Positions 8,302 through 16,819 of a stretch of 64,000 nucleotides of DNA are shown one piece after another (within the stretch, counting starts at the first letter, position 1; the number at the start of each line of letters is the position of its first letter). This stretch comes from Deltaproteobacteria bacterium (GTDB lineage Bacteria > Myxococcota > Myxococcia > SLRQ01). Where the stretch lies: positions 1 to 64,000 of the forward strand of contig JARGFU010000006.1 in the NCBI GenBank assembly GCA_029210625.1. Reading direction: 5' to 3'. The notes under the pieces are model-generated. The model did not search any database. It saw only the letters and a list, made by a program, of their open reading frames with translations, and was not told the origin of the DNA. The position numbers were made by a program, and so were the translations under genes.

Positions 8302-8532
8302 TCAGGTTGCGCGGGCGCGCAGGGGCGCGAGGATCTCCTGCTCCTCGTCCGGGAAGCGGCCGCTGGCGTGCTTCGAGTAGAGCAGGGCGCCATCCACGTG
8401 GATGTCGTAGATGCCGCCGCCGCCGCGGATCAGCTCGACCTCGACGCCCGGCAGGTCCTTCAGCTTGGCCGCCAGACCGGCGGCCCTCGGCTCGTAGTTT
8501 CAAGCCCCGCAGTAGGTGATCGTGATCTTCAT
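8302..8532 (-). CDS. SelW-like (SelT/SelW/SelH, Rdx family) selenoprotein with in-frame UGA at codon 11
   Basis: Reading ATG at 8532 through the TGA at 8502-8500 gives a complete 76-aa thioredoxin-like protein beginning MKITITYCGA-U-NYEPRAAG and ending in TGA at 8304-8302. The redox motif is Cys-Gly-Ala-Sec, where Cys-only members carry CxxC. The body (AAKLKDLPGVEVELIRGGGG, then IYDIHVDGALLYSKHASGRF, PDEE) matches the Rdx family in order and length. A 7-bp stem-loop sits 14 nt after the UGA (separate entry). The gene starts 22 bp after the DUF2063 gene, with GAGGA before the ATG, so it is the fourth gene of the DUF692 operon. Predicted role: thiol/selenol redox in the cytoplasm. The selABCD genes are not in the window. 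Confidence 0.87.
8467..8485 (-). promoter_or_regulatory. Bacterial SECIS-like hairpin downstream of the UGA codon
   Basis: On the minus strand GGCCGCC pairs perfectly with GGCGGCC around the 5-nt loop GGTCT. The loop begins 21 nt after the UGA and its first two bases are G. Both agree with the loose bacterial SECIS consensus (small apical loop with an early G, within about 16-37 nt of the UGA), which SelB reads. Confidence 0.75.
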
Positions 8533-8554
8533 GTCCTCGAGGATAGTCCAGGCG

Positions 8555-9304
8555 TCACCCTCGCGCCGGCAGGAGGATCAGGCCGAGCCCGGCCGCCCGC
8601 TCGAGGAGCGCCCCAGCCTCCTCCTGGCGCTGCCCGGACTGGCGGGCGGCCTCCTCCAGGGGGATGCCCTCGAGGGAGACCTTCAGGGCGAAGAGGAGGG
8701 GGTCCGAACCGCGGTAGTAGGAGGCGATCAGCCGCTCGGGGTGGCGGAAGACGAGGACCGTCTCCGGCGCCTCGAGGGGCTCTGGCGGCGGGGGAGGGGG
8801 CTCGCCCCGCGAGGCGCGCGCGTCGTGCTCCAGGACCCAGTCCACCAGGGGGAAGGCGACCTGGAGGACCCGCAGGGTCGGGTTGGGGGTGGGGGCCTTG
8901 AGCGAGGCGGGCTCGGGCTCGCGGGCCTCGTCGGCGTAGGCCGCGAAGCACTCCCACTCGAAGCGGGCCAGCGCCACGGCGAAGGCCGGCACGCGCGCGT
9001 CGCCGGCGGCGTGCAGGGCCTCGAGGAAGTCGGCGAAGGGCTCGGCGGCCCGGTTCAGCTCCCAGGAGCGGGCCGGGTGCGAGAGGTAGAAGCCCCCGGC
9101 CAGCTCCCCGGCGGACTCGCCGAGGAGCGCCCAGCTCATCGGGTGGTTCTTCTCCACCACCGAGACGACGTGGTGGCGGACGAAGTTCCGGTAGATCGTC
9201 AGGCGGGCCGGATCGCAGCCGAGGATCCGGGCCGTCGCGTCGGTGGAGGCCTCGCCCCGCAGCAGGGCGTGGAGCTGCGCCTGGGTCGCCCTCAGCGCGT
9301 CCAT
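8555..9304 (-). CDS. DUF2063 (HvfC/BufC N-terminal domain) partner protein of the MNIO
   Basis: 249-aa protein. The N-terminal ~95 residues match DUF2063: AQLHALLRGEAS, RLTIYRNFVRHHVVSVVEKNHPMSWALLGE, GGFYLSHPARSWELNRAAEPFADFL. The C-terminal part carries a Pro-rich stretch and VLVFRHPERLIASYYRGSDPLLF, as in BufC/HvfC proteins. In described systems this partner delivers the precursor peptide to the DUF692 enzyme. The ATG at 9304 lies inside the end of the DUF692 gene (13-bp overlap), showing coupling. An upstream in-frame extension to 9403 is rejected because it lies entirely within that gene. Confidence 0.88.
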   Translation of the reverse strand: MDALRATQAQLHALLRGEASTDATARILGCDPARLTIYRNFVRHHVVSVVEKNHPMSWALLGESAGELAGGFYLSHPARSWELNRAAEPFADFLEALHAAGDARVPAFAVALARFEWECFAAYADEAREPEPASLKAPTPNPTLRVLQVAFPLVDWVLEHDARASRGEPPPPPPEPLEAPETVLVFRHPERLIASYYRGSDPLLFALKVSLEGIPLEEAARQSGQRQEEAGALLERAAGLGLILLPARG

Positions 9305-10200
9305 GCCGCGACCTCCACCTCGCCGAGGGTCTCGCGGGCGACAGCCCGCACCTTGCGGTTCTCCTCCAGGAGGACCGGGAGCTCGGGGATGTCGTTGTCC
9401 CACTCCACCAGGGTGCTCACCGGGCCGGTGTGCTCGAGGGTGTGGGCGTAGAGCGCGAGCACCTCGGGGACGGCCGGCGCGCCGTGGGTGTCGATGATCA
9501 CCTCGGGCAGGCGCTCGTGGCCGGCCATGTGGATCTGCACCACCGCCTCGGGGGGGATGCCCTCGATGAAGGCGCGGGGCTCGTAGCCGTGGTTCTGGCT
9601 GTTCACGTAGACGTTGTTCACGTCCAGCAGGAGCTTCACGCCCGTCCGGGCGACCAGCCGCTGGATGAACTCCAGCTCGCTCATCTCGGAGGCCCCCAGC
9701 TCGATGTAGTAGCTCGGGTTCTCGAGGGCGAAGGGGATCGGGAAGCGCCGCTGGATCCGCTCCACCCGGCGGCTGACGTGATCGAGCGCCGCCTCGGTGA
9801 AGGGGAGGGGAAGGAGGTCGTGGTACTCGACGCCGAAGCCGCCGCTGGAGCAGAGGTGGTCCGAGAACCAGGGCGCCCCGGTGGCGTCGATCAGGCGCTC
9901 GAGGTGCGTGAGGTAGTCCTCGCTCAAGGGATCGGGGCCGCCGATGGAGAGGCCGACGCCGTGGAGGACGAAGGGCCTGGAGCGCAGGAGCCGCTCGAGG
10001 ACGGCCCGGGGGCGGCCGCCGAAGGACATGTAGTTCTCGACCAGGATCTCGAAGAAGTCGATCTCGTGGCGGGTCGCCTCGGCCTCGACGGTCTCGACGA
10101 TCGCGTCGTAGTGCGGGCGGCGCAGTCCGATCCCGTGACCGAGGTAGGGGACGCCGCCGGCCGGCGCGGGTCTCGGGGTCTGCAGCGCGAGAGCGGTCAT
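9292..10200 (-). CDS. DUF692 multinuclear non-haem iron oxidative enzyme (MNIO; BufB/HvfB/MbnB family)
   Basis: 302-aa TIM-barrel protein. Characterised members use a di- or tri-iron centre to rearrange cysteines of a small precursor peptide into copper-binding heterocycles. Family motifs are present in order: VLHGVGLSIGG (His80), WFSDHL (Asp114, His115), FALENPSYY (Glu160, Asn161), LLLDVNNVYVNSQNHG (Asp193, Asn196, His204), QIHMAGH (His224, His228), IDTHG (Asp237, His239) and LVEWDNDIP (Glu266, Asp268). The set of likely metal ligands looks intact. The ATG at 10200 has AGGTGA upstream. It lies between a Cys-rich precursor gene and the DUF2063 partner. Confidence 0.95.
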   Translation of the reverse strand: MTALALQTPRPAPAGGVPYLGHGIGLRRPHYDAIVETVEAEATRHEIDFFEILVENYMSFGGRPRAVLERLLRSRPFVLHGVGLSIGGPDPLSEDYLTHLERLIDATGAPWFSDHLCSSGGFGVEYHDLLPLPFTEAALDHVSRRVERIQRRFPIPFALENPSYYIELGASEMSELEFIQRLVARTGVKLLLDVNNVYVNSQNHGYEPRAFIEGIPPEAVVQIHMAGHERLPEVIIDTHGAPAVPEVLALYAHTLEHTGPVSTLVEWDNDIPELPVLLEENRKVRAVARETLGEVEVAAWTR

Positions 10201-10230
10201 GGGGTCACCTGAAGAGAGGGGGGGTTGATA

Positions 10231-10264
10231 CGCCCCCCGTGCCGGCGGCGCGGACGGGGGGGCG
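10231..10264 (-). other. Strong hairpin between precursor and DUF692 genes
   Basis: CGCCCCCCGT and ACGGGGGGGCG form a 10-bp stem with one bulged base, within the 85-bp spacer after the precursor gene. There is no U-tract. Such a structure could limit read-through or protect the 5' precursor mRNA, so that precursor outnumbers enzyme, a common need in RiPP operons. That role is inference. Confidence 0.55.
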
Positions 10265-10285
10265 CAATCGCGAGTCCGCAGGCGA

Positions 10286-10591
10286 TCAGCCGCCGCAGGA
10301 GCCCGCGCCACAGCTGCCGGCACCGCAGGAGTGCTCGCCGCCCTCGGTCGCGGCCTCGCCGCCGGCCTCGCCGCCGCTCTCCGGCGCGGCCTCACCGGCC
10401 GCCTCGGCCTTGCCGCCGCAGCTGTGCTCGCCGCCTTCGGTCTTGCCACCGCAGGAGGCGCCGCCGCAGGACTTCTCCTCGGCCTTCACGTTCTTGGAGG
10501 CCCCGGCGCAGCCGGTGGCGCCAAGGCCCAGGCTGCCCAGGGAGATGGTGGCCGCCAGGGCGCCCATCGTCATGGTCTTGCTGATCTTCAT
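10286..10591 (-). CDS. Exported Cys-rich precursor peptide of the DUF692 operon (bufferin/HvfA-like)
   Basis: 101-aa small protein: a basic hydrophobic leader of about 27 residues ending at GATGC (possible lipobox with Cys28), then an Ala/Glu/Gly-rich low-complexity region with seven Cys in all (28, 42, 47, 58, 89, 94, 99). Six of them sit in Ser-Cys-Gly motifs: SCGGASCGG, EGGEHSCGG, and a terminal EGGEHSCGAGSCGAGSCGG. Placement directly before DUF692 and DUF2063 genes identifies it as the probable substrate, comparable to HvfA/BufA peptides that carry repeated EGKCG motifs. The motif here differs. Start at 10591 has a GAGGAG Shine-Dalgarno. A longer frame (to 11185) runs antisense to the next gene and is rejected. 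Confidence 0.85.
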   Translation of the reverse strand: MKISKTMTMGALAATISLGSLGLGATGCAGASKNVKAEEKSCGGASCGGKTEGGEHSCGGKAEAAGEAAPESGGEAGGEAATEGGEHSCGAGSCGAGSCGG

Positions 10592-10633
10592 CGAGATTCT
10601 CCTCTTCGGGAGGGTTGGGGTTGATGCCTCTAC

Positions 10634-10659
10634 TTGGGCCGGTGGGCGGGGATGGTTAC
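10634..10659 (-). promoter_or_regulatory. ECF-sigma-type promoter of the DUF692 operon
   Basis: On the minus strand GTAACC (10659-10654) is followed after exactly 16 nt by CCAA (10637-10634), giving an expected 5' UTR of about 35-40 nt before the precursor ATG. It closely resembles the GTAACC-N16-CGAA box that I recall being described for the metal-responsive ECF factor SigF of Caulobacter, which controls DUF692-type operons. One base of the -10 box differs. No ECF/anti-sigma pair lies next to the operon. Confidence 0.55.
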
Positions 10660-10802
10660 AGCCGCCCCCACCGGTCCCTTCATCGGGGCGAGCGATAGGG
10701 TGGGCCGCCCCCGGTGGGGCGGCCAGCGCCCTCGCTCCGGCGTGAATCTTTGGGCTAGGCTCTCCGTCGAGACGGTCAGAGCTCACCTCGAAAGGGAGAC
10801 CC

Positions 10803-11984
10803 ATGTTCACCAAAATCGCAGCCCTGTCTGGAAAAACCTCCTCGCTCCTCCTCACCGCGGGCCTCTTCTCGGCCCTCCTCGTCTCGCCAGCGGCGGCCCG
10901 GGCCCAGGCCCAGCCGGCCGTCGCTCCCTCCCAGCCCGCCGGGGCCGGCTCCACCGCCGCGCCGACGGGCGGGACCCCGCCGGCCGTCGAGCGGCCGGCC
11001 GCGGCCCGGAACATCACCCCGGAGATGAAGAAGAAGGTCGGCAAGAACCCGCTCATCCAGCGCCTCTCCACCGTGGGCGGCCCGCCCCGCTTCTCCGGGA
11101 ACGCCAAGGGCGCCTCCCGCTGGCACGACGAGGTCATCGGCCGGGGCTCGGTGCCGATCACCGTGCCCACCCCCCGGGGCCTCATCGAGGCCTACGCCAC
11201 CCCCGACGGCAAGAAGCTCTGGATCGCCGGCGCCATGGTCCGCGACTCGGGGGTCATCCTGCGCATGGGGGATCTGCTCCCGTTGCTGCAGGTCGTGGGG
11301 GTCTCGGATCGAGAGGTGGCGCTCGGCGCCAACCTCCTGCAGGTCGGCAGCGGTGTGCCGCCCTCCTACACCCTCGGCTTCCGCCCCGGTCTGCTCTGGA
11401 AGCACCGGGCGACCCTCGAGCGGCAGCGGCAGGCCGGCCGCGTGCTCTACAGCCTCACCACCGGTCAGCTCACCGTCCTCGGCGCGCACGTCCTGGTCGA
11501 GGGCCGCACCGGCGCGCTGCGGGCGCAGCTGGTCAGCCCCCAGGGCGATCAGGTCGAGCGGATCGAGCAGCTGATGACGCCCACCGGCTGCCGGGACCTC
11601 GAGGAGGGCCTGCGCTCGGCAGAGCCCGAGAAGCTCCTCCCCGTGGCGAAGAAGAAGCTGGGGGTCCCCTCCATGACCCAAGCCTGCGCCGCGCGCTTCG
11701 TGGCCCTGGCCGGCGGGCCGGGCGCGGCGGACCTCCTGCGCAAGGCGCTCCGGGGAGATCAGATCGCCCGCCCCTTCGACCTCGTCGAGGCCCTGGCGAC
11801 CGTCTCACCGAAGCCCGAGAAGCAGAACCTCGAGGCCGTGCTGCAGATGATCCAGCGCACCGGCACCGTCGGCTCGGACGCCGCCTGCCGGGCCGCGCCC
11901 CTCTCCTGGACCAGCGCCCTCCTCGAGCGCAGCGACCTCGACGACGCGACTCGCTCGGTGCTGACCCGCTGCGCCTGGCACTAG
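10803..11984 (+). CDS. Secreted protein of unknown function
   Basis: 393 aa. The N-terminal signal peptide (SSLLLTAGLFSALLVSPAAARAQA) is followed by an Ala/Pro/Gly-rich linker to about residue 65, then a folded region with no family I recognise. It contains three Cys in the C-terminal third (TGCRDLEEG, TQACAARF, SDAACRAAP) and a fourth near the end (LTRCAWH), compatible with two disulphides. The ATG is preceded by AAAGGGAG. It is divergent from the DUF692 operon across a 211-bp spacer, so the two may share regulatory DNA, but nothing else links them. Ends 8 bp before the convergent MepA-like gene. Confidence 0.8.
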   Translation: MFTKIAALSGKTSSLLLTAGLFSALLVSPAAARAQAQPAVAPSQPAGAGSTAAPTGGTPPAVERPAAARNITPEMKKKVGKNPLIQRLSTVGGPPRFSGNAKGASRWHDEVIGRGSVPITVPTPRGLIEAYATPDGKKLWIAGAMVRDSGVILRMGDLLPLLQVVGVSDREVALGANLLQVGSGVPPSYTLGFRPGLLWKHRATLERQRQAGRVLYSLTTGQLTVLGAHVLVEGRTGALRAQLVSPQGDQVERIEQLMTPTGCRDLEEGLRSAEPEKLLPVAKKKLGVPSMTQACAARFVALAGGPGAADLLRKALRGDQIARPFDLVEALATVSPKPEKQNLEAVLQMIQRTGTVGSDAACRAAPLSWTSALLERSDLDDATRSVLTRCAWH

Positions 11985-16460: not shown

Positions 16461-16819
16461 GGGGGCGACTTGGCTTCGACGAGGGCAGTGAAGCCAGCGA
16501 TCGCATGCCGTGGCGCCGCAACCACGTCAAAAGCGGCAAAAACACAAAAGCCAACGACGACGTTGAGCTCGCTCTCGCGGCCTAAACACCCGTAGAGAGT
16601 CGTCCGGCCACCCCGAGCCCGAGGGGGTGGGTCCCGGGCGTCAAACTTTCGGGCTGGTCAGCGCGTTTCGCCCGGCGATGCGCTGACGAGATTTTTGTCG
16701 GGACCGCGTCTCGCATCACCTGTCGGTGGGTGGGTGGGGCGTCAAATTGATCATCGACTAAGCATGTAGTGGTCCTGGTGGAGCGCTTTCGGACCCGGGT
16801 TCGACTCCCGGCGCCTCCA
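16461..16819 (+). ncRNA. ssrA: Transfer-messenger RNA (tmRNA), tag ANDDVELALAA
   Basis: 359 nt. The 5' end GGGGGCG pairs with CGCCTCC at 16812-16818, with one G-U, to form the tRNA-like acceptor stem. The T-arm CCGGGTTCGACTCCCGG precedes it. The CCA end is not encoded. The tag frame starts at GCC 16550 (resume codon) and reads ANDDVELALAA to TAA at 16583-16585. GC-rich pseudoknot-like stems follow. With SmpB it rescues stalled ribosomes and tags the nascent peptide for proteolysis. No convincing promoter is visible directly upstream, and the mature 5' end is normally made by RNase P. The 3' end is reiterated in the adjoining tandem repeat. Confidence 0.93.

Follow-up and report, generated by a model that had tools for sequence, protein, structure and literature searches.

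Does the UGA inside a short frame of this deltaproteobacterial contig end a gene, or does it specify selenocysteine? The frame in question lies on the minus strand of the window, by which we mean the whole 64,000-nucleotide stretch of DNA that was analyzed. It runs from ATG 8532 to TGA 8304-8302 over 76 codons including the UGA, and the TGA at 8502-8500 is its only internal one, as an earlier note on this DNA had read it. The features considered here are as follows.

8302..8532, minus strand: gene for a SelW-like (Rdx / SelT-W-H) protein, predicted selenoprotein; 76 codons plus stop
8500..8502, minus strand: in-frame UGA, very probably read as selenocysteine; residue 11, in the CxxU motif C8-G-A-U11
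8467..8485, minus strand: bacterial SECIS hairpin, GGCCGCC / loop GGUCU / GGCGGCC, from sequence and comparative pairing
8534..8538, minus strand: possible ribosome-binding site GAGGA, seen in the sequence directly upstream of the ATG and unusually near the start
8555..9403, minus strand: upstream neighbor, a DUF2063 protein (BufC-like), ending 22 nt before the SelW ATG

The reading frame, its family and its relatives

Read through the UGA, the frame yields MKITITYCGAUNYEPRAAGLAAKLKDLPGVEVELIRGGGGIYDIHVDGALLYSKHASGRFPDEEQEILAPLRARAT. In profile searches, for which U was replaced by C, residues 2-65 of this product matched Pfam Rdx (PF10262) on both sides of the UGA (59.3 bits against a cut-off of 22.6; E=4.2e-16), and its score against NCBIfam TIGR02174 (CXXU_selWTH) was 51.1 bits, above the cut-off of 34.2. 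The likeness to Rdx/SelW proteins before and after the UGA that the earlier note had described is thus borne out. Against the NCBIfam equivalog NF041051 (SelTWH_Campy) the product reached 75 bits, below the curated cut-off of 88, and it is not filed there. By sequence it also matches SelW-family members of solved structure, among them the homologous vertebrate selenoprotein W (2npb). The CxxU/CxxC motif near the N terminus is present as C8-G-A-U11, with columns 8 and 11 invariant across 39 aligned sequences, and a search of the genome for a second Rdx protein found none, leaving this as the sole one. Its CGAU is also the active-site sequence of vertebrate SelW. Longer antisense open reading frames over the gene were judged to be GC-rich by-products.

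We scanned 84,980 species genomes and kept the best 80 relatives of the gene, which belong to the Acidobacteria, Deltaproteobacteria, Gemmatimonadetes, Planctomycetes, Krumholzibacteriota, and other groups. TGA occupies the aligned codon in all 80, across many phyla, a result that was not built in because the search patterns contained no TGA codon. Among 147 genomes of the same class, the TGA form was found in 87 and a Cys form in one; in another (G022) the only match was weak and partial and stops short of the Sec site. Taking a match at E<=1e-10 as a strong tRNA-Sec, 82 of the 120 class genomes with one carry a TGA form, as do 5 of the 27 without. The counts were tallied by hand, and the Fisher test on them (p=2.5e-6) should not be read strictly as a probability, since the genomes are related. 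All five TGA-bearing genomes that lack a strong match are draft assemblies. The only other genome of the same family examined (85% complete) does not carry the gene.

These counts bear on a first competing account, in which the TGA is a true stop, either because the gene is a pseudogene derived from a Cys form or because TGC or TGT was misread in sequencing. The single class member with a Cys form lends it some precedent, for there (genome G039, locus L103, 1501-1740) the codon is TGC, the motif reads YCAPCGY, and the genome has no tRNA-Sec over the cut-off. Nevertheless, TGA stands at the same codon in every one of the best 80 relatives and in 87 class genomes, so the sense codon in homologues that the earlier note had named as possible evidence against its reading is confined, within the class, to this one case. 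In addition, the frame 3′ of the UGA is open and conserved in the alignment of relatives, and the hairpin described below is under selection. We consider a true stop very improbable. The L103 Cys form retains GGTCTG and wobble-rich pairing where the SECIS would be, perhaps a relic of a recent change from Sec to Cys.

The stem-loop downstream of the UGA

The hairpin is a perfect 7-bp stem (GGCCGCC at 8485-8479 and GGCGGCC at 8473-8467) closing the loop GGTCT (8478-8474), and it starts 14 nt after the UGA; stem length, loop, and this distance are as the earlier note had stated. The distance from UGA to apical loop in bacterial SECIS elements is 16-37 nt, a range that the earlier note had worded inexactly and that the hairpin fits at 21 nt. 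Its 7-bp stem and its 5-nt loop beginning with GG, the early loop G noted before, likewise agree with the published description of bacterial SECIS elements, namely, a loop of 3-9 nt, an upper stem of 4-16 bp, and G in the first two loop positions, with the rule G[G|U] (PMC13188914). In E. coli fdhF the SECIS similarly lies within the coding region after the UGA and has the same GGUCU apically, but its upper stem contains a bulge, whereas here seven uninterrupted pairs lead to the 5-nt loop.

Since the hairpin overlaps codons for the peptide AAGLAA, which alone could give much of the pairing, we compared it against synonymous recodings. In 98 sequences, which are related and whose counts are therefore not independent events, the seven stem positions formed 622 pairs, against 466±9 expected from 200 recodings with synonymous codons at their local frequencies (maximum of the 200 draws, 489). 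All seven pairs formed in 48 of the 98 sequences, against 4.5 expected, and when the 3′ arm was shifted by 1 to 4 nt no complete stem remained. In pair 4 both partners are third codon bases, the codons being mostly Ala, so that its changes are mostly silent; across 94 distinct segments it was C-G in 47, U-A in 33, G-C in 5, A-U in 1, U-G in 6, and unpaired in 2, and the two bases thus pair in 92 of 94. Codon choice in the loop is similarly skewed: of 55 Gly codons, 52 are GGT (8.6 expected), and where Ser stands instead, the codon is AGT in 12 of 12 (0.7 expected). Loop position 2 was G and position 3 was U or G in 94 of 94, a pattern that fits the G[G|U] rule. Because no sequence departs from G[U/G] at loop positions 2-3, the relatives provide a clean set for testing loop recognition by SelB.

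The stem-loop is selected as RNA, beyond what the peptide AAGLAA implies. It is the comparative test that carries the SECIS claim, since the minimum free energy of the 48-nt hairpin segment is only mildly better than that of dinucleotide shuffles (z=-1.65). An Rfam scan of the region returned no SECIS family, only sub-threshold chance matches.

Selenocysteine machinery and probable decoding of the UGA

The earlier note had proposed a search for selA, selB, selC, and selD and would have counted a lack of selB and selC against its reading; all four are present in the source genome (6.1 Mb, 98% complete). We recovered a tRNA-Sec with a UCA anticodon (selC; 67.5 bits), SelA (461 bits), a full-length SelB with a SelB-wing (winged-helix) domain (292 bits), and SelD (382 bits; G000:C1:67334-68257). 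The selD gene has an in-frame TGA of its own, in AGUACK, and the gene for one formate dehydrogenase alpha subunit, FdhA (741 bits; G000:C36:13888-15894), has one as well. Since the SelW-like gene, SelD, and FdhA each carry an in-frame TGA, at least three genes of this genome appear to decode UGA as Sec. Downstream of its UGA, the FdhA gene also has the loop GGTCT, as the SelW-like gene does.

A second competing account would have the UGA read as Trp or Cys under a changed code, or passed by leaky termination, with the hairpin a by-product of the Ala-Ala-Gly-Leu-Ala-Ala codons. Such codons in GC-rich DNA do tend to self-complement, and 5.2 of the 7 pairs are expected by chance for the window's own sequence; yet pairing at synonymous sites, covariation, and the choice of loop codons all lie far above the peptide-driven expectation. 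Against this account, too, the gene itself ends in TGA, the genome has no Rdx paralogue, and the Sec pathway is complete. We give this account almost no credence.

Instead, we expect that the locus is almost certainly a genuine bacterial SelW-like selenoprotein gene whose UGA is decoded as Sec via a SECIS, the interpretation that the earlier note had favored, and that the internal UGA very probably inserts selenocysteine. Ribosomes would start at ATG 8532, and the UGA at codon 11 would be decoded by Sec-tRNA(Sec) brought by SelB, which the hairpin 14 nt downstream, within the coding region, would recruit. This differs from eukaryotic Sec insertion, in which the SECIS lies in the 3′-UTR. The predicted product is a 76-residue, thioredoxin-like protein of the Rdx family whose active site is CxxU; it would probably act as a thiol/selenol oxidoreductase.

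Descriptions of the family go back to 2005, and it ranks with the commonest selenoproteins of marine bacteria; the locus is a new member of it and as such of low surprise. SelW-like proteins outnumbered every other family in the Sargasso Sea selenoproteome, in a study that described their function as unclear (PMC1088965). With 427 genes they were also the largest family tabulated from the Global Ocean Sampling (PMC2398784), and Cys homologues of them are very few in Sec users (PMC1794560). The earlier note was therefore right that Sec forms of SelW exist in bacteria. It had also called the gene hidden; standard stop-to-stop gene calling would indeed miss the gene confirmed here, but the word overstates the case, since the family and such losses are published (for example, SelW genes of Epsilonproteobacteria missed by annotation [PMC4607533]) and NCBIfam models exist. 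With the known bacterial SelW-like selenoproteins (PMC1088965, PMC1794560, PMC2398784; TIGR02174, NF041051) the locus shares the Rdx family, CxxU, the in-frame UGA, a SECIS directly 3′ of it, and the scarcity of Cys homologues in Sec users; apart from its score below the NF041051 cut-off, there is no difference in kind. What is added is a SelW-like selenoprotein that is well supported and whose SECIS is clearly under selection. A literature search on selenoproteins combined with Myxococcota found nothing.

Gene neighborhood

Given its position, the DUF2063 gene is probably on the same transcript as the SelW-like gene. At 8555-11185 on the minus strand, the window holds an MNIO enzyme (PF05114), its overlapping DUF2063 partner, and, upstream of these, a short Cys-rich, precursor-like open reading frame that is small and signal-peptide-like, with SCGG/HSCG repeats; the group resembles a bufferin cluster. 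A SelW-like selenoprotein cotranscribed with, and working in, such a metal-binding RiPP cluster (MNIO plus DUF2063) might, for example, keep the precursor cysteines reduced; SelW proteins would then be tied functionally to metal-buffering peptides, a connection that would be new. We regard it as unlikely, and as speculation, because YceI (encoded after the SelW-like gene), DUF2063, MNIO, hemH, and other window neighbors do not recur near SelW in the 80 relatives or the class loci. The paper on MNIO/bufferin clusters makes no mention of SelW, Rdx, or selenoproteins. A conserved neighborhood was rejected, the flanking clusters being lineage-local or antisense open reading frames over the SelW-like gene itself. 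Elsewhere in the window, a tmRNA gene lies on the plus strand at 16461-16819, with the tag ANDDVELALAA.
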